From a virus: a stretch of 41,524 bases of DNA. Within the stretch, counting starts at the first letter, position 1; each line of letters starts with the position of its first letter. Where the stretch lies: positions 1 through 41,524 of IMG/VR virus record IMGVR_UViG_3300025108_000009, one strand, 5' to 3'. Below are positions 4,143 to 37,824 of the stretch, piece by piece. A model generated the notes under the pieces. The model was not told the DNA's origin, did not search any database, and worked only from the letters and a program-made list of their open reading frames with translations. The position numbers and the translations under genes are program-made.

Positions 4143-4286
4143 ATGAGCCTATACGAAAACATTAACAAGCGTAAAAAAGCTGGTACTAGCAGACCTAAGA
4201 GTAAGTCTACTATCAGTGACAAGTCCTATGCCAACATGAAGGCTGGTTTTCCTAAGAAGACAAATAAGTATAAGAAGAAAGCATGA
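4143..4286 (+). CDS. Small basic protein (47 aa)
   Basis: A short frame with a good AGAGGTAACT ribosome site directly before its ATG, ending in an ATGA overlap with the endolysin. The product starts MSLYENINKRKKAG and is dominated by Lys, Ser and Thr. Its C-terminal end, NKYKKK followed by Ala, closely resembles that of the small protein at 26338-26460 (TDKYKKK). Small basic proteins of this type recur in T7-like marine phages, where their function is unknown. Nucleic-acid binding is possible from charge alone. Confidence 0.65.
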   Translation: MSLYENINKRKKAGTSRPKSKSTISDKSYANMKAGFPKKTNKYKKKA

Positions 4287-4702
4287 ACTATTCACAGTTA
4301 ATTCAACAACTTAAACGTCACGAAGGATTGAGGTTAAAGCCCTACAAATGCACAGCAGACAAGCTTACTATCGGTGTTGGAAGAAACTTGGAAGATGTAG
4401 GCATCTCAGAAGAAGAAGCAGAGATGTTGCTGATAAACGACATAGAGAGGGCAACAAACCAGTTGGTGTTGACCTTTCCGTGGACAGAAGACCTAGACAC
4501 GGCACGTTTTCAAGCCCTTATCAACTTCACCTTCAACGTAGGGATAGGGACAGTGGGCAAGTTCGTAAACGCAATGGCTCTGCTAAAGGACGGAAGCTAC
4601 GATATGGCAGCAGACGAATTTCTGAACAGCAGGTGGGCTAAACAAGTAGGCCAACGTGCGGTAGAAGTTGCGGAGCAGATACGCACAGGAGAGTGGCAAT
4701 GA
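4283..4702 (+). CDS. Endolysin, T4-type lysozyme (GH24) with Cys in the Asp position
   Basis: A 139-residue muramidase that cleaves peptidoglycan between N-acetylmuramic acid and N-acetylglucosamine. The catalytic block is EGLRLKPYKCTADKLTIGVG. Glu14, Cys23 and Thr29 have exactly the spacing of Glu11, Asp20 and Thr26 in T4 lysozyme, so a Cys replaces the usual Asp. Cys at this position is known to be compatible with activity. The later FQALINFTFNVG segment is also typical of the family. There is no signal or anchor sequence, so export must be through the holin encoded upstream. The start overlaps the previous stop (ATGA). Confidence 0.9.
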   Translation: MNYSQLIQQLKRHEGLRLKPYKCTADKLTIGVGRNLEDVGISEEEAEMLLINDIERATNQLVLTFPWTEDLDTARFQALINFTFNVGIGTVGKFVNAMALLKDGSYDMAADEFLNSRWAKQVGQRAVEVAEQIRTGEWQ

Positions 4703-11071: not shown

Positions 11072-11154
11072 ACATGTCCTAAATGTAATACATGTTAAAC
11101 ATACTATAGTATATAGTTAAAGGGGGTCTTCTCATGGTTGTAACTTTAGAAACT
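11072..11154 (-). repeat. Right arm of the 83-bp inverted repeat
   Basis: Inverted copy of 7054-7136, 79/83 identical. The perfect 59 bases are 11072-11130. On the + strand this arm holds the ACAT units, the palindrome ATACTATAGTAT (11101-11112), AAGGGGGTCTT, which supplies the ribosome site of the polymerase gene, and the first seven codons of that gene. The CTAAAGTTACA motif lies here on the minus strand at 11139-11149. A transcript covering both arms could pair over 83 bases and hide the polymerase start. Confidence 0.95.
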
Positions 11155-11931
11155 AACCAAGACCTATTTGAGCATCAGCTTGAACTTGAGGCAGACATGC
11201 TGACAGGTGGTGTCAATCGCTTCAGGAAGGCCAGAGACAAGGCCATTGAAAAGGGTAGGGAATCACACCTGCCACATGGTAGAGCCATTGTGGGTACAGT
11301 TGTGGGGCAGGTAGCACAGGGTATAGAACAGTACCTAGCCAACCCTAACAATCCATCAAGAGACATAGCATGGAAGCGTGTCAGGGATATGGATGCAGAG
11401 CAGGTAGCCTACCTCTCAGTGGTGTCGTTGGTTGACAGCATCAGCAGGAAGAACACACTGCTGCATGTGGCACGTACCATTGGTACTAACATTGAGATGC
11501 AGGATAGACTAGACAGATGGGTACACGCAGAGGGTAGTGTAGCCAAGAACACAATCAAAGAGGCTATGAAGAAAGCCTATGGTGCTAGACGCTACGGCCT
11601 GACGCACAAGATGAACAAGGATGGGTACGAAGAATTAGCATGGCTGAAGTCAGAGCGTGTGCATGTAGGCTTTAAGATGGTGGACATAATCATCCAGCAC
11701 ACAGGCATTGTAAAGCTGGACACACAGCAGACTGAGCGTAGACGTAGGGCTACCTATGTCAAACCTACTGACGGTACGCTAGAGTTTATCCAAGCGTTCA
11801 ACGAATACATGGAAGTATCAAGGCCACGCTACTTACCCTGCATAGTGCCACCCAAGGACTGGACAGATGTACAGGGTGGTGGGTTTCATGGTCACGATAT
11901 AGATGAACTACCTATAGTGAGGCGCAAATGA
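11134..11931 (+). CDS. T7-family RNA polymerase, N-terminal polypeptide
   Basis: A 265-residue protein equivalent to about the first 300 residues of T7 RNA polymerase: the promoter-binding N-terminal domain. Matching landmarks are EHQLELEADM...NRFRKARDKA (T7 REQLALE...RFRK), VHVGFKMVDIIIQHTGIVKL (T7 IHVGVRCIEMLIESTGMVSL) and VPPKDWTDVQGGGF (T7 VPPKPWTGITGGGY). It stops just after LPIVRRK, matching T7 LALVR. The second gene starts in an ATGA overlap. The ATG has AAGGGGG upstream, lying in the inverted repeat. It should associate with the next product to form a two-part polymerase. Confidence 0.9.
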   Translation: MVVTLETNQDLFEHQLELEADMLTGGVNRFRKARDKAIEKGRESHLPHGRAIVGTVVGQVAQGIEQYLANPNNPSRDIAWKRVRDMDAEQVAYLSVVSLVDSISRKNTLLHVARTIGTNIEMQDRLDRWVHAEGSVAKNTIKEAMKKAYGARRYGLTHKMNKDGYEELAWLKSERVHVGFKMVDIIIQHTGIVKLDTQQTERRRRATYVKPTDGTLEFIQAFNEYMEVSRPRYLPCIVPPKDWTDVQGGGFHGHDIDELPIVRRK

Positions 11932-13577
11932 GTTTGAAGACACACTTACGCAGACTAAGACAGGAAGACTTGAGCCAAGAGTATGCCTGTCTTAACACAC
12001 TGCAACAAACAGAGTGGCGTATCAACAAGCCATTGCTTGAGGTGATGCGTACCATATGGGACAACGGACATGAATGGGGTAAGCTACCAGCCAAAGAGGA
12101 TATACCACTACCTGAGTATCCCTTTGACCGTGACCCCAAGCAGTTGACTGAGGATGAGAGGGATGAGTTTCGTGCATGGTCACGCAAGCGTAATCACATC
12201 TACTCTCTCAACAACCGCAGCGTGAGCAAGCGCATACAAGTAGAGCGTACACTACAGATAGCAGAACAGTTTGCTAGGTACGACAGGTTCTACTACGTGT
12301 GGCAGAACGACTTCCGTTCTCGCAAGTATGCAAGCAGCACGTTCCTCTCACCTCAGTCTGCCGATTGGAGTAAAGCACTACTAGAGTTTGGCTACCCAAT
12401 GGCTATCAACAATTGGGATGATGCACGGTGGTTGTGTATTCATGGTGCTAACCTGTATGGTAACGACAAGATTACACTAGACCAGCGAGAGACATGGGCA
12501 TGGGAGTATGCAGAGATGTGGGCGCACCGCATTGTGTCCAACCCATACGAGTGCATGGTCTGGCTTGAGGCAGACAAACCATTCCAGTTCTTGGCGTGGT
12601 GCTACGAGATGTCAGGCCTGATGAAGCATAGCTGGGGGTACGAGACACGCCTACCTGTGTCGGCAGATGGTAGCTGCAATGGGCTACAGCACCTCTCTGC
12701 TATACTGAGGGACAGGCAGGGTGGCCTTGCTACTAACTTAGTACCATCAGGTATACCTCAAGACATCTACACACAGGTGGCAGACAAGACTATCGCACGT
12801 GTGCAGCAGGACGACACAGAACTAGCACGTAAGTGCTTAGCCTTTGGCGTAGACAGGAAGCTTGCCAAGCGTCCAGTGATGATTGTACCCTACTCAGGTA
12901 CACGTCACGCATGTCGTGGCTACATAGAGGAAGCTATGCACGATAAGATAGATGCTGGTGAGCCTAACCCATTCGGTGATGATTTGTTTGAGGCATCCAG
13001 CTACCTAGCTGGTCACGTGTGGGATTCAATCAGTGAGGTGATTGTGTCAGCACGTAAGGTGATGGACTACATCAAGGATGTGGCTGATGTGTATGCTCAG
13101 ATGAACAGGCACATGGAGTGGGTCACACCTACGGGATGGTTAGTGTTACAACAATACAGTGAGGTGCAGCAGAAAAGAATCAAGACACATATCAATGGGG
13201 ACATCGTGTCGTTGTCCTTTCCCAAAGACAAACCACACTCAGTGAACAGGCAGAGGACAGGATTGGGCAGCAGCCCTAACTTTATCCACAGTCTAGATGC
13301 AGCAGCTATGACCAAGACTATCAACAAGGCAAGCAAGCTAGGTATCCAAGACTTTGCTATGGTACACGACAGCTACGGTACACACAGTAGTATGATGCCG
13401 CTGTTGTCTGAGGTATTACGTGAGGAGTTTGTTAATATGTATGAGCAGCATGATGTGTTGACAGAGTTGAGACAACATGCTATTAAGGTACTAGGTACTG
13501 AAGATGTACCAGTGCCACCAGCTAGGGGTGAATTAAATTTGCGTGAGATACTACAATCGGAGTATTTTTTTGCGTGA
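11928..13577 (+). CDS. T7-family RNA polymerase, C-terminal catalytic polypeptide
   Basis: A 549-residue protein with the full palm/fingers core of T7 RNA polymerase. Motif A is ADGSCNGLQH (Asp247, T7 Asp537). Motif B is DRKLAKRPVMIVPYSG (Lys314 and Tyr322, T7 Lys631 and Tyr639, same spacing). Motif C is MVHDSYGT (Asp481, T7 Asp812). The C-terminus, LREILQSEYFFA, matches T7 LRDILESDFAFA. It starts with ATGA at the previous stop, with GAGG five bases upstream. The two products total 814 residues against 883 in T7, with no visible gap at the junction. It would drive middle and late transcription. Confidence 0.93.
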   Translation: MSLKTHLRRLRQEDLSQEYACLNTLQQTEWRINKPLLEVMRTIWDNGHEWGKLPAKEDIPLPEYPFDRDPKQLTEDERDEFRAWSRKRNHIYSLNNRSVSKRIQVERTLQIAEQFARYDRFYYVWQNDFRSRKYASSTFLSPQSADWSKALLEFGYPMAINNWDDARWLCIHGANLYGNDKITLDQRETWAWEYAEMWAHRIVSNPYECMVWLEADKPFQFLAWCYEMSGLMKHSWGYETRLPVSADGSCNGLQHLSAILRDRQGGLATNLVPSGIPQDIYTQVADKTIARVQQDDTELARKCLAFGVDRKLAKRPVMIVPYSGTRHACRGYIEEAMHDKIDAGEPNPFGDDLFEASSYLAGHVWDSISEVIVSARKVMDYIKDVADVYAQMNRHMEWVTPTGWLVLQQYSEVQQKRIKTHINGDIVSLSFPKDKPHSVNRQRTGLGSSPNFIHSLDAAAMTKTINKASKLGIQDFAMVHDSYGTHSSMMPLLSEVLREEFVNMYEQHDVLTELRQHAIKVLGTEDVPVPPARGELNLREILQSEYFFA

Positions 13578-27310: not shown

Positions 27311-29652
27311 TGGCACTCATCAGTCAATCTATCCCCAATCTGATTAACGGTGTATCACAACAACCACCATCTCTACGTCTTAACACACAGGCAGAGTTAC
27401 AGGAAAACGGTTTATCTAATGTTGTAACAGGCTTATCTAAGCGTCCTAGTTCTCAGCACATTGCTGACTTAGGAGTTATTAACAACATAGACAAGGCTTT
27501 TATCCACACTATCCGTAGAGATGAGAACGAGTTCTACTCTATGGTTGTTGATACTGCTGGCACAATCAACGTGTTTGACAAGGATGGTGTATCAAAGACT
27601 GTAACTAATAATGCAGCCTCATACCTATCTGGATTGACTGACCCAAGCCAAGAGTTGGCTGCTGTCTCTATTGCTGATACAACTTTTATTCTAAACAAGA
27701 ACACAGTAGTAGCTAAAGGTACTAACACATCACCCTCACGTAATCCTGAGGCATTGGTGTATGTCAAGCAAGCTGACTACTCTTCAACATACCGATTAAA
27801 ACTAACAAAGGGTGCAAGCACAAGCACTGTTGAGTTTGCTACTAAGTCATCAACACAAAGTAGTACGTCACTAACACAGAACGCAGAACGTGGTGCATCA
27901 ACAGACTTGATTGCAGAGAACTTAGATACGTTCTCAGGCACAGCAGTTAACACTACCTACTATGATAACATTACTGACGGTACTGCTGTCACAGGTTTGA
28001 CACTAACACGCTACGGTTCTGTTATACACATCCAATCAGATGATACGACTAACTTTACAGTAGAGGTAGGTGATTCACACGGTGGTGACCACTTACTGTT
28101 GTTTAAGACTGAGACTGCTGACTTTAAGAAGCTGCCCACAGAAGGGCCAGTAGACTTTAACATTAAAGTATCTGGCGACAACCAAAAGGCGCAGGACGAT
28201 TACTACGTCAAGTTTACAGCAGACGGTGTTTGGAAAGAAACCATTGAGCCTAATATTATTATAGACCTTGATGCCACCACACTACCACACAAACTAGCCA
28301 AGCAACCAGACGGTAGCTTTATCTTTGATGAGGTTAGCTACGCTGACCGTAGGGTGGGTGATGACGGTACTAACGACTTCCCATCATTCATAGGTTATAC
28401 CCTTGCTGACATCTTCTTCCATCGTGATAGGCTAGGTGTTCTAGCTGATGAGAATGTTATCTTTGCACGTGCAGGAGAATATGTTGACTTTGATTTCTTC
28501 CGTAAATCTACACTTACTATTGTTGATAGTGACCCCATTGATGTTGCAGTATCCTCTAATAAGGTTAGTATTCTTAAACATGCTGTACCCTTCAACGAGG
28601 CCTTACTACTATTCTCAGACCTTACACAGTTCAAGCTAACTGCTGACCCTGTACTTACCCCTGAGACTGTAAACATTGCTAACACCACAGAGTTTGAGGC
28701 ATCCCTTAGAGCCAAGCCAGCACAAGCAGGTAAGTTTGTGTACTTCGCATCTAAGCGTGGTGCATGGTCTGGCATGTGGGAGTACTATGTAGATACAGAC
28801 ACAGATACTAACGATGCTACAGAATCTACAGCACACGTACCTGAGTACCTCAATGGTGATGTAACTAATATCCAAGCATCATCCAATGAGGATATGCTAC
28901 TGGTACAGACTGACAATGACCCAGAGGCCTTGTATGTATACAGGTACTATTGGTCAGGTAGAGAGAAGTTACAGTCGTCATGGTCACGCTGGGTGTTTGA
29001 TGGTGATGTAATAGGATGCTCATTTAACCGTGCAGATATTACACTGCTAATCAAGAGAGACACTAATCTATACCTTGAGCGTATTAACTTATCAGTAGAT
29101 GATGCAACGAACTACACCACAGGTCAGTTCTCCATCCATCTAGATAGACGTGTACAATTAGAAACTGCTGGTCTTACTACAGTACCATACGTTGACGCAG
29201 CCACAATCTACATTGACCAAACAGGTAATGTAATAAACCTAGCAGATGTAGCAGGTAAGTTAGCTGACAGTGAAATAGTCTATGCTGGTATTCCGTACAT
29301 ATTTAAGTACCAGTTCTCTGAGCCTGTAGTAAAGCAAGCCAACCAACCAGTAACCACAGGTGTACTGAACCTTAGAAACTATGCAGTTGTGTATAACAAC
29401 ACAGGTTTCTTTGAGGTAGATGTAACACCTTCTAGACGTGCCACATACAATCGTAAGTTTACAGGACGTATTGTGAGTGGTGCAGCAAACATACTTAATA
29501 GAGCCGCCATTGATTCAGGTACATATGAGTTTGGTATTCTGGCTAAGTCAGACAAAGTTAGTATCGTACTAAAAAGTGATAGCCACCTGCCATGTGTATT
29601 CCAATCGGCAGAATGGGAAGGCTTCTATGTTCTACGTTCTAGGAGAATGTAA
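27310..29652 (+). CDS. Tail tubular protein B (gp12-like nozzle)
   Basis: A 780-residue protein, close to T7 gp12 (794). The start, LISQSIPNLINGVSQQPPSL, is diagnostic, followed by LQENGLSNVVTGLSKRPSSQ and FHRDRLGVLADENVIFARAG. Six copies form the tail nozzle that closes the DNA channel until adsorption. The C-terminus (FQSAEWEGFYVLRSRRM) also matches. It overlaps both neighbours by one base. Confidence 0.95.
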   Translation: MALISQSIPNLINGVSQQPPSLRLNTQAELQENGLSNVVTGLSKRPSSQHIADLGVINNIDKAFIHTIRRDENEFYSMVVDTAGTINVFDKDGVSKTVTNNAASYLSGLTDPSQELAAVSIADTTFILNKNTVVAKGTNTSPSRNPEALVYVKQADYSSTYRLKLTKGASTSTVEFATKSSTQSSTSLTQNAERGASTDLIAENLDTFSGTAVNTTYYDNITDGTAVTGLTLTRYGSVIHIQSDDTTNFTVEVGDSHGGDHLLLFKTETADFKKLPTEGPVDFNIKVSGDNQKAQDDYYVKFTADGVWKETIEPNIIIDLDATTLPHKLAKQPDGSFIFDEVSYADRRVGDDGTNDFPSFIGYTLADIFFHRDRLGVLADENVIFARAGEYVDFDFFRKSTLTIVDSDPIDVAVSSNKVSILKHAVPFNEALLLFSDLTQFKLTADPVLTPETVNIANTTEFEASLRAKPAQAGKFVYFASKRGAWSGMWEYYVDTDTDTNDATESTAHVPEYLNGDVTNIQASSNEDMLLVQTDNDPEALYVYRYYWSGREKLQSSWSRWVFDGDVIGCSFNRADITLLIKRDTNLYLERINLSVDDATNYTTGQFSIHLDRRVQLETAGLTTVPYVDAATIYIDQTGNVINLADVAGKLADSEIVYAGIPYIFKYQFSEPVVKQANQPVTTGVLNLRNYAVVYNNTGFFEVDVTPSRRATYNRKFTGRIVSGAANILNRAAIDSGTYEFGILAKSDKVSIVLKSDSHLPCVFQSAEWEGFYVLRSRRM

Positions 29653-30110
29653 TGAAAGTCCATGTGAGACAGAGTACCCAAGATGATGTTGAATATCTTT
29701 GTGACAACTTACGCCCTGAGGATAGGGAAGAGGTACTTGCCTCACATGGTAGCACTAGAGAGGCCTTACAGGTAGGCTTTGATGAATCAGAAGAATGTTG
29801 GACTATCACTGTGAAAGACACAGGTGAGATAGCTGGTATATATGGACTAGCTAGGTATGATGATGACGCAGCAGTGCCGTGGTTACTGACCACACCTGCT
29901 ATTAAAAAGGTATGGCTACCATTCCTACGTGGCTCACGTAAATGGGTAGAAGAAGCTAATCAAAAATACCCCCTACTTACTAATGCAGTAGATGCAGACT
30001 ATACTGTAGCTATCAACTGGCTACGTTTTGTTGGTTTCACGTTTATCAAGAAACATGAGAAATGGGGCGTAGGTAATAAACCATTTCTAGAATTTGTGAG
30101 GATACGATAA
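29652..30110 (+). CDS. gp13-like protein with GNAT-type fold
   Basis: A 152-residue protein (T7 gp13 is 138) with AGGAG before its ATG. It starts VHVRQSTQDDVEYLCDNLRP and has GEIAGIYGLARYD, then NWLRFVGFTFIKKHEKWGVG near the end. This is the arrangement of GNAT acetyltransferases (helix, beta hairpin, late FxxxG). T7 gp13 occupies the same place between gp12 and gp14 and is needed for virion maturation. Whether the fold is catalytic here is unknown; its position argues for a structural or assembly role. Confidence 0.82.
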   Translation: MKVHVRQSTQDDVEYLCDNLRPEDREEVLASHGSTREALQVGFDESEECWTITVKDTGEIAGIYGLARYDDDAAVPWLLTTPAIKKVWLPFLRGSRKWVEEANQKYPLLTNAVDADYTVAINWLRFVGFTFIKKHEKWGVGNKPFLEFVRIR

Positions 30111-30751
30111 TGGACCCAATGACTATTGCTGTCGGTGTACAGGGTGTAGCCAATTACTTTGATGCAGAAAACAAAGCAGCATGGACTGAGTATGACTTTC
30201 TACAAAATAGAGTTAATGCTGCTGTAGCACGTGACTTAAAAATACAAAGCTTAAACCGTAGAGCAATACAAGAAGCAGAAGCTACAGCAGGTCAAAAGTT
30301 TGACTTAGCTATTGCATCTATGGAATCTAGGGAAGCACGTACTGTTGCTGCTGGTGAATCAGGTCTAGGTGGTAAGAGTATTGATGCTCAAGCAAACATG
30401 GTTACGGCTAGACAGTTACGTGGTGAAACAGTACTAAATGATAATCTGCGTATGACGCTAGACCAAATTGAAGATGAAAAAGAAGGCTTCAGTACTGAGA
30501 TGATGAACAGGATTAACTCACTACCACGTGGGCAAAAACCTAACATGTTAATGCACGCACTCAACACTGCTGCTAATATGTATGGTACTGAAGCAGCTAT
30601 GACAGGTAAATCACCATTCTCTAGTAGCGTGGCAAGTAAGGGTTCAACTATAGCTATGCCAGTTAGTAAGACCGCAAGCATAAGTACAGTACAAGCAGGT
30701 ATGACACCAGCTTCTACATACGCCTATATTACTGGTATGCCTAAGATTTAA
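30110..30751 (+). CDS. Internal virion protein (gp14-like)
   Basis: A 213-residue protein (T7 gp14 is 196) starting in a TAATG overlap. It is helical and Ala-rich (YDFLQNRVNAAVARDLKIQS, NRRAIQEAEATAGQKFDLAI), with GESGLGGKSIDAQAN as in other gp14-like proteins. In T7, gp14 is ejected first and forms a pore in the outer membrane for DNA entry. The large gp15- and gp16-like genes follow in the same order as T7. Confidence 0.88.
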   Translation: MDPMTIAVGVQGVANYFDAENKAAWTEYDFLQNRVNAAVARDLKIQSLNRRAIQEAEATAGQKFDLAIASMESREARTVAAGESGLGGKSIDAQANMVTARQLRGETVLNDNLRMTLDQIEDEKEGFSTEMMNRINSLPRGQKPNMLMHALNTAANMYGTEAAMTGKSPFSSSVASKGSTIAMPVSKTASISTVQAGMTPASTYAYITGMPKI

Positions 30752-30763
30752 TGAGGAGTTATT

Positions 30764-33700
30764 ATGGCACAATCTAGAGTACAAGTGGGTAGATTAAACG
30801 CACCCACACAGTCTGATTTACGTCCACAAGCTGCTCCTGTAGAGACTTATGTAAGACCAGTTGAATCACAGGTTCAAGCTAGTCCTTTATCTCAGTTCAT
30901 GTCAGCAATTAGTCCTGCTATCGAAGCAGACGCTCAAATAAGAAAAGCTGACAGATTAAAGCGTGAAAGAGAATTAGAAACTAATAAGACCAGAAGGCAG
31001 TTAAATCAATTACAACAAGCTGGTAAAATTCTAGAAGCTAATATGGATGCAGAGTACTATACTACCAATGAAGCTGGTAAACTAGTATTCAAACCAGAAT
31101 ATCTAGACATGGATACTGCTGATGTATTAGCTTTACGAGAAAAATCCGTAGATGAGTATACTAAGCAACTAGAGGGTGTTATAGACCCTATGTACATTGA
31201 GGGCTTTAAGGAAGACCAACTAGCTGTCTCAATGATATGGGGAAATACTACATATAGGACTGCTAAAGAAGCGCACAACAAAGGTAAGTTAAATAATGCA
31301 CTTACTACAACTCTAACAGCTATCAATGACCAAGCTGCTAGGGACATAGCTAACGGTGTGCCTAATGCTATGGAAAACGCTGCATTACAAGTTAATGCAC
31401 AAATTAACAACCATTATGCAGCTAACTCAGACCTTTATTCTAGCTTTGAAGAATTAAATAATGTAGTAAGAAACTTTGCTTTTGATGAAATTAAGTATCG
31501 TGCAGATACACCTACAGTAGCATGGTTAGATGATGCTAAATTATCTAAGAACCAATTAGGTGTAGGCAAGTATGCTGCAAGAAACTCTGCTATCTTAGCA
31601 GCTAGGGAGACAGAAAGAAAAACTACCTATAACGCTACTGCTAAAGCTACCTCAATAAATAAGCAGGTTACTGATGCTGTTAATACTGGTAATGCTTCCT
31701 CTATTACTAAAAAATATACAAAGATTGATGGCACAGAAGGTACATATACTGATGCAGAATTAGATGCAGCTATCTTTGCTAATGAAGATTTTAAAGCACT
31801 AGGTGGCCCTAATGGTGAATTGACTGGTCAACAATCTCGTTTGTTTGGGAAGTGGGGGTACGTTCCTAAAGTATTCAAAAACAGAGTTACAGATATTCTT
31901 CCTTTATTTAATGCAGGTCAAGATGTATCGTCATCAGAATCTAATGAAAAATTAATGCTTGGTTTTCAGACTTATCAGATGATAAGGAACTCTGGGGCTG
32001 TCGTTGAAAGTGTCTTAGATATCAATGAGGATGATATTGAAAGATTTGATGCTTTGGAGTACTTAGTACAAGAACAAGCTAGAGTAGGAGAAGTGTCACA
32101 AGAAGGTAAAACAGTACAGAACTATAGTAATGCTGTTGCTATGGTTCAACGTATGGACTTTACTATACCCAGACCAACTAAATTAACAGAGGATGTAGCT
32201 GCCTCTATGGATGCTAGTTGGTATGCGGATGCTTTTGGTACAGACCTAAGTGAATCTTATAATTCAGCACATATAATGGCAGAAGCTGCTGACCGTGTAC
32301 ATCATTTAGTACAGCTAGGTCAGGTTTCGTATAAAGATGCGTTAAAACAAGTAGCTGCACAAATGGCTAGGGATTATCCCATAACTAAATCTAGTGATGG
32401 GACTGCTTATGCTTATAAACAGTTAAACACAGGTATTGATGAAAGTCTAAATGCCTCTGATGTAATAGCAGACTACAACGCAGCCCTAGCTAACTCAGAC
32501 AAGCTTGCTAAGTATATGGCGGATACTCATAGATTAAAAAAAGGTGAGTATGTTGTAGCTTTACAGCCAAATACTGTTAATCCTAAAGCTACTTCAATAC
32601 ATGTATGGGATACTAGAGAAGATACTCCTCTATACTTAGGTGTAGCGGGTGGGCAGATAGATAGAATAACACTGCTTAATGACAAGCAGCAGTTATATAA
32701 TCTTGAAGCCACTGTGATGACACAGGATAACGAGTTTACTACTGGTTATACAAGCACAGTACCAGATGCTTTGTTGTCTGATTCCCAGCAAGTCATAGAA
32801 GATACCATTAACCAGAACCTTACATACTTTGGTGGTACAGGTGAAGCAGGACAAGCAGGAACATTTGAAGACTTATTAAATTCCCCTGCTGCAAAAGACT
32901 TAGACAAACTTATAAACCCAAATTATGGTATCTTAACCAGAGGTATTACACATGGCTTTAATTTAGTACCTACAGCAGAAGGTCTGGCAAAAGAAGCTGA
33001 ATATGTAAAAAGTTTGTTTAAGGGTACAGGACAAGTCAGGGAAACTGTAACACCTGAGGATGCCGCTGCAAGAAGAGAAGACCTTGGTCTTAGTATTGGT
33101 GATGTAACACCAATGAACGCCTTTACTGATATGTTCAAGGATGCTACACCAGAAGTTAAGGAAGTCGTAGATAAGCTATCTTCTAACTTAAACTTTGTAA
33201 CAACAGCTAATGCTACTGCAACCATTATGAATGATGAGGGTTTTGAATACACTCCTTATGATGATATGGGTAAGCAGTCAGTAGGTCATGGTCTACAGAT
33301 TGAATCACTAGAGGATGATGAGAAGGCTCTTATTGCTGACATCAACAACGTACAGCCTGAGGAATCTGCTGCTGTAGTTGCTTTGAAAGTAGATAAAATA
33401 ACTAACTACTTTTCTGACGCAGTAGAAGGCTTTGAGAACCTACCAGAAACAGCAAAGTCTGGTATGATTCAAATGGGTTATCAGCTAGGTAGATTTAATG
33501 TCACCAAAGAGTGGCCTAAATTTATGGAATCAATTAAGGAAGCTGCACAGTATGCAGAAGGTTCCGCAGAACAGGCTACTGCTCTTGCCAAGGCTAAGTT
33601 TAATATGCTTTACAATGTTGCAGAGGATGGTACTGCTACCGCTACTAGGTGGGCTACACAGACTAAGAACAGGGCTATAAAAGTAGCTAATGAACTTGCG

Positions 33701-34456
33701 AGTAGTGCAGGTGATGCAGCCGCATCTATCTTTGAAGCTGTTATACCTAAGGCACACGCTGATACAGACCTTATTCCACAGAAAGAACAGTTAAAGGTGG
33801 GTGATGTCCCAACAGCTTCTGCTGTTGTAGATATTGCCCTAGCGCAAAACCCTGCTGATGCTGCTTATAAATACTACGGTATTGATGAGAACACAGATGA
33901 GGGTGCTGCTGCTGTTAAAGGTTTCTTTAAAACATCTGTGGGTGATTGGAACCCAGACCAAGAAACAGTAGAAGAGTTTGCCACAAATAAAGCGTGGTGT
34001 GCTGCTTTCTTAACACAGGTCTTGCGTGATTCAGGTATCGACACTAAGGCTCTATTTGGTACAGACAAGTTTGACCAGATACGTGCTAAAGCTTACACTA
34101 ATGTTGGTACTCAAGTAGAACCTACACAAGTTAAAGCTGGTGATGTGATGGTTAAACAACACACGGCAGAAGAGCGTAAAAAGTTTAAGCTAGGCTATGG
34201 TCACGTGGGCATTGTTGTAAAAGTAGAAGGTGATGAGGTATTCTTTATTGGTGGTAACACTGGTGATAGGGTAACCATGTCTTCTTACAACATGAACGAA
34301 AAGCAGGTTGATTTCAGAAGAATCCAAAATGCTTCTGACATCCCTACTGAAAGCTTACCTTCTATGCTTGAATTAAAAGCTGGCGTGTACACTAGAAAAG
34401 CAGTGAAGAAAGCAAAGAACTTGTTTACTAGTATGTATGACAACATATTTGGATAA
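30764..34456 (+). CDS. Internal virion protein (gp15-like) with lysozyme and CHAP-like domains
   Basis: A 1230-residue protein, far longer than T7 gp15 (747). The first ~820 residues are a helical core protein. Next is a GH24-like domain: NDEGFEYTPYDDMGKQSVGHG with Glu825, Asp834 and Ser839 aligned with the T4 lysozyme triad (Ser for Thr, one residue shorter). The end is a cysteine-peptidase-like domain of the TIGR02594/CHAP type: AWCAAFLTQVLRDSGI (Cys1079), GHVGIVVKVEGDEVFFIGGN (His1147, Asn1165). Both could cut peptidoglycan during DNA entry. AGGAG precedes the ATG. Confidence 0.9.
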   Translation: MAQSRVQVGRLNAPTQSDLRPQAAPVETYVRPVESQVQASPLSQFMSAISPAIEADAQIRKADRLKRERELETNKTRRQLNQLQQAGKILEANMDAEYYTTNEAGKLVFKPEYLDMDTADVLALREKSVDEYTKQLEGVIDPMYIEGFKEDQLAVSMIWGNTTYRTAKEAHNKGKLNNALTTTLTAINDQAARDIANGVPNAMENAALQVNAQINNHYAANSDLYSSFEELNNVVRNFAFDEIKYRADTPTVAWLDDAKLSKNQLGVGKYAARNSAILAARETERKTTYNATAKATSINKQVTDAVNTGNASSITKKYTKIDGTEGTYTDAELDAAIFANEDFKALGGPNGELTGQQSRLFGKWGYVPKVFKNRVTDILPLFNAGQDVSSSESNEKLMLGFQTYQMIRNSGAVVESVLDINEDDIERFDALEYLVQEQARVGEVSQEGKTVQNYSNAVAMVQRMDFTIPRPTKLTEDVAASMDASWYADAFGTDLSESYNSAHIMAEAADRVHHLVQLGQVSYKDALKQVAAQMARDYPITKSSDGTAYAYKQLNTGIDESLNASDVIADYNAALANSDKLAKYMADTHRLKKGEYVVALQPNTVNPKATSIHVWDTREDTPLYLGVAGGQIDRITLLNDKQQLYNLEATVMTQDNEFTTGYTSTVPDALLSDSQQVIEDTINQNLTYFGGTGEAGQAGTFEDLLNSPAAKDLDKLINPNYGILTRGITHGFNLVPTAEGLAKEAEYVKSLFKGTGQVRETVTPEDAAARREDLGLSIGDVTPMNAFTDMFKDATPEVKEVVDKLSSNLNFVTTANATATIMNDEGFEYTPYDDMGKQSVGHGLQIESLEDDEKALIADINNVQPEESAAVVALKVDKITNYFSDAVEGFENLPETAKSGMIQMGYQLGRFNVTKEWPKFMESIKEAAQYAEGSAEQATALAKAKFNMLYNVAEDGTATATRWATQTKNRAIKVANELASSAGDAAASIFEAVIPKAHADTDLIPQKEQLKVGDVPTASAVVDIALAQNPADAAYKYYGIDENTDEGAAAVKGFFKTSVGDWNPDQETVEEFATNKAWCAAFLTQVLRDSGIDTKALFGTDKFDQIRAKAYTNVGTQVEPTQVKAGDVMVKQHTAEERKKFKLGYGHVGIVVKVEGDEVFFIGGNTGDRVTMSSYNMNEKQVDFRRIQNASDIPTESLPSMLELKAGVYTRKAVKKAKNLFTSMYDNIFG

Positions 34457-34479: not shown

Positions 34480-37400
34480 ATGGCTACTGAAAACGAACAA
34501 CTTCTCCAAGACCTTGGCATAAAGGGTGTCAATCCTGACGCATTACCCTTAGTCACGACTGTGGACGAAGCTGCCCTAACTAAGCAGCAGGTGCTGGCTG
34601 ACAGCAGAAGTTCTACATTTCTTAATAGTTTAGGAAGTGCGGTGGAAGAGGAATGGATTGCTACTTCCGTCTATAATAATCTAGATAGGTTTCAGTCATC
34701 AGGCGTACCTGTGACTAAGTTTACACCTGAGTTGGTCAAACAACTAACTGAAGGCCTAGAAGAAACTCTGGCAGCACGTGAGGTGTTAGAAGATGCACAA
34801 TTACGTGGCGTTAATTCAGCCATGAAAACACGTGAATCTTACTTACGCACACAAGCAAACAGAAGACAAATAGCAGAGGACGGTTGGTCTGGTGTTACAG
34901 CAACCGCCCTAGCTGCTATGTTTGACCCTGTAGAGTGGACAGCTATCTTTGGTACAACAGCAGCCGCAACAGCCGTTGCTGGCCCTGTAGGGGGTGGTGC
35001 TGCATTAGTAGCAGGTACAGCTAAAAAAGCTTACAATGTAGGACGTGCGTTTAAGTATGGAGCAGTAATTGGTGGTGCAGAAACAGCAGCATTTGAAGCC
35101 ATCCGTGCAAACTTAAAGTATGATGTAACTGCTAGTGATGTTGTTATAGCAGGTGGTTTAGGGGCTACCCTAGCTGGCGGTTTGAACGCAGGTGCTACAG
35201 CTTTTGTTCGTGCTGGGCATCGTGCTAGGGTTGCACAAAAGGTTTTGCGTGGGGAAACACTAACACCAGCAGAGCAAAGATTTCACGATGAATACAACGT
35301 AGATGCTCTAGCAGAAAAAATACTACGTGAAGAATTAGATGGAGAAAAGTTTATTGAAGCTGCTGATGGTTTACCTACCCAACAGAAATCTATTCCTGTA
35401 GGTGAAGTAACTAAAGAAGTAGCAGAAGCTATTCCAGAACAAGCTGGTTGGAATATGCTTGGGCTGCGTAAGCTATTATCTACTGGTTATAGACTAGCAA
35501 GCCATAAGCTTGGTTACGCTAGGTATGCTGCACGTGTTTTAGGTCTTAACTCATCAGGGTATAAAGGCGGTAAACTAGAAACAGGTATGTCTGCTTCTGA
35601 GTGGTCAGAAATGTATCAGGCTAGGTTCCGTAGCACTATGTCTAATGTTATGCCTAATGCACAGTCTCGTTGGAAGCAACGTACTGGTGGCACTATTTCA
35701 GACTTTAATACCTTAGTATCACGCTATGTACGTGGTATTGATACTGAAGTCCCTAATGAAGTAAAAGAGGTAGGAGACTTAGTAAACAAGCTACAAAGAG
35801 AATTAGCCGAAGAAGCTGTCAAGCATGATGTAGCAGGGTTTAGCATGGATATGCTTAATAACCACTCTAACTACATGACACGTATCTTTAACGATGAAAA
35901 GATTAGAGCATTACGTATGCGACTAGGTGATGAGGCAGACCTACAAATCGCTGAATTAGTAGATACAGCTATTAGAAAAGGTCAACCTGACATTGTAGCT
36001 AATGTTAGAAAACATCTTGCATCTAAGGGTAAGAAAAAAGTTACCGATAAAATGGTAAAGGACTATATTAGAAAGATAGCTACAGCATATACTAAATCAA
36101 TTACTGACCCTAAGTTGGGTAAGTTAGGTCATGCTGGTGCTAACGAAATGAACCTAGAAGACCTTGCTGATATTCTTAAAGCAGGTGGGTTTGATGCAGA
36201 AGATATAGACATAGTAACAGACTTTCTTACACGTACTAATATACCTAAGGCTCATAAAAGAGCAAGACATCGTTTAGTACTGTCTGAAGATGCTGTGATA
36301 AAAGCACAAGATTCTGATGGTAATGTCTTTGAACTAAAGTTTGCTGACTTATTGGAAGAAGATGCAGAACAGTTGTTTAACAGTTATGTGTTTCAAATGT
36401 CAGGTGCTATTGGTTTAGCACGTAATGGTATCAACACTAATCAAGTAAACTCAAATTTTGATAACTTACTAGAAAACATTAGAATAGAAGGTAAGAGAAA
36501 GAACGCATCTAAGGATGAAATAGACGAAGCCATAAATGCTGCTGAGTTTATGTATGACGGTATCACTGGTAGACTAGCACACCGACAAGAGGTGTCAAAC
36601 AGAACACGTGATTTCTTTATTGCCACACGTGCTTTTAGCTTTGCTATAAACATGGGTATGTCAGGCATGTCAGCCTTGATGGAATTATCAAACGCTATGT
36701 TTGAGTATTCTTTCAGAACTATCCTTAAATCCTCACCTGCTTATAGAAGCCTAATAGGAAAAGCAAAGCAGGGTAGATTACCTGACGATATTATGCGTGA
36801 GTTAGTTGAGGCCTTTGGTTTAGGTGAAGAGGTTGCTCTTGGTAACTGGACTAATGTTACACGGTACGATACAGAAGATGTAGGAGATACTATATCACCT
36901 GAACGTGCTTGGGTAGATAAAAAAGGTTGGAGTGCTAGGTTAGCTAGGGGTACAGAGCAGTTTGGTTTTACTGCTCAGAAGAATGTAGCCTACTGGTCTG
37001 GCTTGACAGGTGTAACACAAACTCTTCGTAGATTGTCAATGCTAAATTATACGAATGAGTGGGTACTTGCTGCTCAAAAAGGTAACCTACCTTTCTCTGT
37101 AACCAAGCGTCAACAACTAGGCCTAAATGAAGAAATGGCTGGGCGTATTTCTGCTATTATGCGTAGTAATACTGTAGAAAAAGAGGCTAATGGTGCAGTA
37201 AAAAAGTTAAATCTAAAAGATTGGCCTGATGATGTACGTGATGCGTTTCAAGCCTCAGGTTTTAAGGAAGCTAGGAACAACGTACAAGAAAGTAACATTT
37301 CTTCTACCAATCCGTGGCTCCGTGGTGAAGTAGGTAAAACTTTTTTCCAGTTTATGAACTTTACGGTAGCATCCCTAGAGCAACAAACCATGCGTTTAGG

Positions 37401-37824
37401 TGTACGTATGCGTAGAGGAGACATGGCTGTTAGTAAAGTACTTCTTTCTGCTGCTATGATGGGTTCACTAATGTATATAGCACGTGTTAATCTTAATGCT
37501 GCTGGACGTAGTGACGCAGATGAGTACGTAAGGGACATGATGGAAGGTGATAAGATTATACTAGGTGCATTAAATCAGATTGGTGCATCTTCCATGTTAA
37601 TGTATATCTATCAACTTTCTAGTGGTGCTATGTCTGGCAATACTTACGCCATTACACCACCAGCGTTTTCTCTGGCACAGTCTGCTTTTCAGACAGTAGA
37701 TTCCATTGCACAAAATGATTGGTCAGAATCCGATTGGAGAACTTTCCTACGGCTTGCTCCGTACCAATCTTTATATGGCGCACGTCAAGGACTTAACGCT
37801 GTAGCTAATTACTTTGGCAACTAA
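34480..37824 (+). CDS. Internal virion protein (gp16-like), no transglycosylase domain seen
   Basis: A 1114-residue protein (T7 gp16 is 1318) following the gp15-like gene. The N-terminal region (NEQLLQDLGIKGVNPDALPL) lacks the lytic transglycosylase ES/GxMQ-type motifs that T7 gp16 has at its N-terminus. Residues about 140-245 contain Gly/Ala-rich hydrophobic stretches (VAGPVGGGAALVAG, VIAGGLGATLAGGL) that could enter membranes. The C-terminal third (LRGEVGKTFFQFMNFTVASL) is typical of large internal core proteins. It should form the trans-envelope channel with gp14 and gp15. Confidence 0.88.
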   Translation: MATENEQLLQDLGIKGVNPDALPLVTTVDEAALTKQQVLADSRSSTFLNSLGSAVEEEWIATSVYNNLDRFQSSGVPVTKFTPELVKQLTEGLEETLAAREVLEDAQLRGVNSAMKTRESYLRTQANRRQIAEDGWSGVTATALAAMFDPVEWTAIFGTTAAATAVAGPVGGGAALVAGTAKKAYNVGRAFKYGAVIGGAETAAFEAIRANLKYDVTASDVVIAGGLGATLAGGLNAGATAFVRAGHRARVAQKVLRGETLTPAEQRFHDEYNVDALAEKILREELDGEKFIEAADGLPTQQKSIPVGEVTKEVAEAIPEQAGWNMLGLRKLLSTGYRLASHKLGYARYAARVLGLNSSGYKGGKLETGMSASEWSEMYQARFRSTMSNVMPNAQSRWKQRTGGTISDFNTLVSRYVRGIDTEVPNEVKEVGDLVNKLQRELAEEAVKHDVAGFSMDMLNNHSNYMTRIFNDEKIRALRMRLGDEADLQIAELVDTAIRKGQPDIVANVRKHLASKGKKKVTDKMVKDYIRKIATAYTKSITDPKLGKLGHAGANEMNLEDLADILKAGGFDAEDIDIVTDFLTRTNIPKAHKRARHRLVLSEDAVIKAQDSDGNVFELKFADLLEEDAEQLFNSYVFQMSGAIGLARNGINTNQVNSNFDNLLENIRIEGKRKNASKDEIDEAINAAEFMYDGITGRLAHRQEVSNRTRDFFIATRAFSFAINMGMSGMSALMELSNAMFEYSFRTILKSSPAYRSLIGKAKQGRLPDDIMRELVEAFGLGEEVALGNWTNVTRYDTEDVGDTISPERAWVDKKGWSARLARGTEQFGFTAQKNVAYWSGLTGVTQTLRRLSMLNYTNEWVLAAQKGNLPFSVTKRQQLGLNEEMAGRISAIMRSNTVEKEANGAVKKLNLKDWPDDVRDAFQASGFKEARNNVQESNISSTNPWLRGEVGKTFFQFMNFTVASLEQQTMRLGVRMRRGDMAVSKVLLSAAMMGSLMYIARVNLNAAGRSDADEYVRDMMEGDKIILGALNQIGASSMLMYIYQLSSGAMSGNTYAITPPAFSLAQSAFQTVDSIAQNDWSESDWRTFLRLAPYQSLYGARQGLNAVANYFGN

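Follow-up and report, generated by a model that had tools for sequence, protein, structure and literature searches.

The open reading frame at positions 30764-34456 of the window, that is the whole stretch of 41,524 nucleotides analysed here (IMG/VR record IMGVR_UViG_3300025108_000009), very probably encodes a gp15-type ejection protein to whose C-terminus an exchangeable cassette of virion-associated lysin domains has been added; the phage is uncultured and T7-like. The product of 1230 amino acids is 483 residues longer than gp15 of T7 (747 residues). A first-pass annotation made from the sequence had given exactly this frame, this length and an excess of about 480 residues, and the six residues which it named as catalytic (Glu825, Asp834 and Ser839; Cys1079, His1147 and Asn1165) are all found at those positions. 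The gene lies between a gp14-like and a gp16-like gene, as recognised by Pfam T7_gp14 and phrog_342, and the features of the locus are as follows.

29652-30110, + strand: acetyltransferase-like gene, 152 amino acids, in the gp13-like position of the ejection cluster (phrog_308 'internal virion protein', E = 2e-38).
30110-30751, + strand: gp14-like ejection protein, 213 amino acids (Pfam T7_gp14, PF24072, E = 1e-16, above cut-off; phrog_805).
30764-34456, + strand: probable gp15-like ejection/tunnel protein, entire open reading frame, 1230 amino acids (gp14-gp15-gp16 synteny; N-terminal fold).
30764-33133, + strand: probable tunnel part, residues 1-790 (AF2 model m77d78b62e7ba; VIA-align).
33206-33709, + strand: predicted GH24/T4-lysozyme-fold domain, residues 815-982 (VIA-align Z 15.0; alignment of relatives; hhalign to phiKMV gp36 and SP6 gp36).
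33944-34297, + strand: predicted CHAP/TIGR02594-like cysteine domain, residues 1061-1178 (PF05257; TIGR02594 below threshold; invariant Cys, His and Asn).
34298-34453, + strand: C-terminal helical tail, residues 1179-1230 (kept in CHAP-bearing relatives; predicted helix, low pLDDT).
34480-37824, + strand: gp16-like ejection protein, 1114 amino acids, lacking both an SLT domain and an internal insert of the phiKMV type (phrog_342; family HMM offsets).
4283-4702, + strand: separate late endolysin, GH24, 139 amino acids (Pfam Phage_lysozyme, E = 4e-19).

Given the endolysin at 4283-4702, the gp15-like protein is not the sole lysozyme of this genome. Elsewhere in the window the coding sequence of the T7-type RNA polymerase is divided between two open reading frames, 11134-11931 (265 amino acids, RPOL_N) and 11928-13577 (549 amino acids, positions 271-816 of the phrog_414 profile), which overlap by ATGA. 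The five relatives inspected (L093-L097, 50-98% identical) all have the N- and C-terminal halves in separate neighbouring frames as well, and the split is thus conserved and not a sequencing error.

Structure was used to identify the tunnel part because hhalign, run with a shallow profile of 20 rows against single sequences, showed no homology of residues 1-811 to gp15 of T7, SP6 or phiKMV. The AF2 model of these residues has a mean pLDDT of 70 (85-94 in its best part) and, over residues 1-790, consists of approximately 40 low-confidence first residues with a PVETYVRP motif, long helices, a helical solenoid and a small beta domain. Foldseek gave zero matches to this model at E<=0.001. When its top chains were re-aligned with VIA-align, six of the first seven rows were gp15-type chains (Z 7.2-8.7), the first being chain 8vb2_E of the PhiM1 ejectosome (Z 8.7). 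T7 gp15 (6ysz) aligned over 200 residues at 3.8 Å with Z 8.0, the T7 core structures 7k5c, 6yt5, 9jyy and 7eyb were also among the leading rows, and a core protein of phage E1004 appeared at rank 14. VIA Z scores of this moderate size (6-9) may arise by chance in helical proteins; with one family filling nearly all of the leading rows and the gene in its expected position, chance is not a likely explanation. Together with synteny these scores argue for a gp15-type tunnel protein, as the annotation had proposed for the N-terminal part, at the confidence given above for the reading as a whole.

The GH24-like lysozyme claimed for the next region was borne out by structure prediction. Residues 815-982 (residues 16-183 of the model, with pLDDT mostly 85-91 and some blocks at 59-79) superimpose on T4 lysozyme with Z 15.0 and an rmsd of 2.3 Å over 140 aligned residues at 21% identity (AF2 model, VIA-align). 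Since residue 16 of the model sits on residue 1 of T4 lysozyme, Glu825 corresponds to E11 and Asp834 to D20. The signal from sequence was weak: Pfam reported the Pesticin-lysozyme family below cut-off (E = 0.0026), and a profile of 31 relatives retrieved T4-lysozyme chains from the PDB at E = 0.08-0.7, the top row being an artificial protein (E = 0.002). By hhalign, phiKMV gp36 (E = 2.5e-5) and SP6 gp36 (E = 3e-4) align to the domain. In the 31-sequence alignment Glu825 is invariant and Asp occurs at +9 in every row, in agreement with the first two members of the triad which had been named. The third did not stand, Ser839 (the T26 position) being replaced by Ala in L008, L016 and L018 and by Thr in L011, L013 and L059, and lying one position nearer than its counterpart in T4 lysozyme. 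The active-site loop of phiKMV gp36, E-x8-D-x4-S-V-G (E753/D762), has the identical spacing, shortened relative to T4 lysozyme, and the KW-TQT-DRA end motif is common to both proteins; as PMC5380687 counts phiKMV gp36 among the virion lysozymes, the shortened loop would be compatible with activity. The model clearly points to a T4-lysozyme fold with the catalytic Glu and Asp, and we predict a muramidase. In L011, L013 and L059 the gp15 lysozyme has the canonical T4 hairpin spacing (E-x8-D-x5-T), while the rest of the C-terminal part is 77-88% identical, which suggests an exchange within the lysozyme domain itself.

The second domain had been described as TIGR02594/CHAP-like, and it is the CHAP part of that description which holds. 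Pfam CHAP (PF05257) matches residues 1076-1165 at E = 4.1e-7, with 30.8 bits (cut-off 26), over positions 6-81 of a profile of 81. TIGR02594 gives E = 2.2e-11 yet only 44.2 bits, below its cut-off of 70.55 bits, and by NCBI's rule the domain therefore belongs to the CHAP superfamily and is not a member of TIGR02594. In the PDB, a CHAP-only profile matched only Tn916-type cell wall hydrolases, and weakly (E = 0.05-0.14), while the full 1230-residue sequence used directly as a query returned nothing relevant. The nearest cultured homologues are proteins of approximately 210 amino acids in Roseobacter phages CRP-804 (gp40), CRP-403 (gp39) and CRP-118, annotated only as hypothetical; they possess the same Cys, His and Asn but, unlike the domain here, are separate proteins with a hydrophobic C-terminal stretch. 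From its profile matches, the domain is predicted to be a cysteine peptidase.

Two other readings of this domain were weighed. It is rather unlikely that the lysozyme alone is active and that the CHAP-like domain is degenerate or a binding module, serving for example in peptidoglycan binding or tunnel anchoring. The sub-threshold TIGR02594 score and the low confidence of the CHAP part of the AF2 model would fit such a role, as would relatives which keep the lysozyme yet omit the CHAP domain or replace it with unrelated domains. However, every CHAP-bearing relative which covers those positions, down to approximately 45-50% identity, has Cys1079, His1147 and Asn1165, as do the free-standing phage homologues; a decayed enzyme would not have kept them. 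We regard it as distinctly improbable that the domain is an amidase or peptidase for another step, for example the trimming of envelope proteins of the host or of the phage core itself, and not for peptidoglycan. The link to peptidoglycan comes from the fold family and the substrates of TIGR02594 proteins are poorly characterised, both of which leave room for it, but the genes of the short proteins CRP-804 gp40 and CRP-403 gp39 are flanked by the tail genes on one side and DNA maturase A on the other, where lysis genes are typically found, which suggests a role in lysis, and the annotations of further homologues of the free-standing proteins name them baseplate hub/tail lysozymes, in large phages, or peptidoglycan-binding proteins. 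Cleavage of both glycan and peptide, as the annotation had it, is thus a prediction, its lysozyme half being strong and its CHAP half based on the fold family.

The claim that the gp16-like protein lacks its transglycosylase was upheld. It aligns to phrog_342 (E = 2e-101) from residue 28 over profile positions 205-1224, whereas the alignment of T7 gp16 starts at profile position 4; SP6 gp37, likewise without SLT, starts at the same point (position 206, at its residue 21). With a gp16 profile of the clade, RHEph21 gp16 is displaced by 168 residues and T7 gp16 by 162, which is the size of the SLT block, and the N-terminal block of approximately 165 amino acids found in both is absent here; the gp16-like protein accordingly starts at the point which corresponds to the end of the SLT block in T7 gp16. 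Pfam gave no SLT match in it, an SLT profile of T7 and RHEph21, run at full sensitivity, scored 1 bit against 283 for T7, and the same profile found no SLT domain in any open reading frame of the fetched relatives. A hidden SLT domain in the gp16-like protein is ruled out by Pfam, the dedicated profile and the block anatomy. Also ruled out is an endolysin-like insert of the phiKMV/PhiM1 type: phiKMV gp37, the gp16 of that phage, has an internal extra block of approximately 270 amino acids, which is missing here. RHEph21 has a short, enzyme-free gp15 and a gp16 with SLT (E = 1e-7).

Searches of IMG/VR yielded 42 loci with the whole protein as query and 50 with the enzyme part, the two sets overlapping. 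Relatives are 63-100% identical over residues 801-1230, whereas the tunnel mostly reaches 15-30% and gp16 31%. L073, which lies on one contig with L023, is 13-34% identical over tunnel residues 101-800, 78% over residues 801-900 and 93-100% over 901-1230, with gp16 at approximately 31%; identity likewise jumps at about residue 800 in L050, L010 and L064. L010 and L024 have a common tunnel and lysozyme, followed by CHAP in the former and an unrelated domain in the latter, and in L029-L037 the protein stops after the lysozyme. These alignments show that the C-terminal cassette is mobile and has been exchanged between phages. That the single frame is an artefact of assembly or gene calling, with gp15 wrongly fused to an adjacent lysis gene, might be entertained for an uncultured virus record; its likelihood is practically nil, and it is refuted by the recurrence of the same single-frame architecture, at 100% to approximately 35% identity and with varied tunnels, in many independent metagenome contigs.

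Two further types of end domain, each of approximately 200 amino acids, occupy the place of CHAP after the gp15 lysozyme. One is present in L024 (12848-13453), L082 (3573-4172) and L085 (6586-7182), and its L024 copy has no PHROG match; the other, with a GEVIITDQYNFND motif, is present in L079 (6604-7203) and L083 (3235-3813) and has no useful PDB match. No mutual homology between them was detectable. Gp15 relatives without GH24 carry a WHESKL...GRGYFQYE domain (L038:5670-6155, L042:3543-4064, L043:5369-5890); its resemblance to a transglycosylase, noted by eye, was unsupported by Pfam, the SLT profile or the PDB. Perhaps enzymes that cut the envelope are exchanged at the C-terminus of gp15 in this clade, some of them possibly recruited from CHAP lysis genes that stand alone, a view which we hold only tentatively. 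Were it true, the two types of end domain would be undescribed envelope-active enzymes adapting the ejectosome to different host walls.

We propose that the gp15-type protein would be packed in the internal core and leave through the tail. In the periplasm the lysozyme would cut glycan strands around the growing tunnel and the CHAP domain would cut stem peptides or cross-links there, the two together doing the job of the SLT domain of T7 gp16, while the separate GH24 endolysin would serve late lysis. In T7 the gp15 tunnel bears wings made by the N-terminus of gp16 (PMC8954989), so an enzyme on the C-terminus of gp15 may stay near the same place. In T7-like DNA injection the tunnel protein could then accomplish wall cutting entirely by itself, its single chain combining two predicted chemistries. 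The swappable cassette makes it testable whether the enzymes of ejectosomes match the chemistry of the host wall, and the relatives reveal two further uncharacterised domains at the place of CHAP.

In T7 the gp14-gp15-gp16 order and the tunnel fold are as proposed here, but the SLT enzyme is on gp16 (residues 15-127) with none on gp15, the reverse of the present arrangement. The annotation had suggested that wall cutting moved to another core protein. Two predicted domains on the gp15-type protein and none on the gp16-like protein agree with this; as a relocation it is not new, since gp15 homologues that cut the wall have been published for SP6, K1-5, phiKMV and PhiM1 (PMC8954989, PMC5380687, PMC11440229), and the hydrolase domain of gp16 is known to be able to swap to the gp15 homologue (PMC8954989). 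SP6 gp36, and gp35 of K1-5 and K1E, are gp15 homologues with a C-terminal Phage_lysozyme domain, as here (PMC8954989, PMC5380687); that of SP6 gp36, which is listed among virion lysozymes (PMC5380687), is a canonical Pfam lysozyme (residues 770-905, E = 7e-10), and, unlike our protein, SP6 gp36 has no CHAP domain. phiKMV gp36 occupies the gp15 position with a homologous C-terminal lysozyme but terminates after it, at 898 amino acids, and likewise lacks CHAP. The best VIA-align match to the tunnel part, gp49 of Pectobacterium phage PhiM1 (PDB 8vb2), is an octameric ejection protein with a described lysozyme-like domain (residues 718-903), and its gp16-type counterpart has an endolysin-like domain inserted in the hub (PMC11440229); the second enzyme-like domain is on the tetrameric, gp16-type protein in PhiM1 and on the gp15-type protein here. 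Two-enzyme virion lysins occur in staphylococcal phages, HydH5 of phiIPLA88 and gp61 of phiMR11 combining an amidase and a lysozyme in one virion protein (PMC5380687); those are tail or baseplate proteins of phages of a Gram-positive host, whereas the two-domain protein here is probably a T7-type core protein. In the open-licence literature neither a gp15-type protein with both lysozyme and CHAP nor the exchange of the cassette turned up. The present locus extends published mosaicism without a new principle, and what appears to be new is the added predicted peptidase and the swapping of end modules among relatives.
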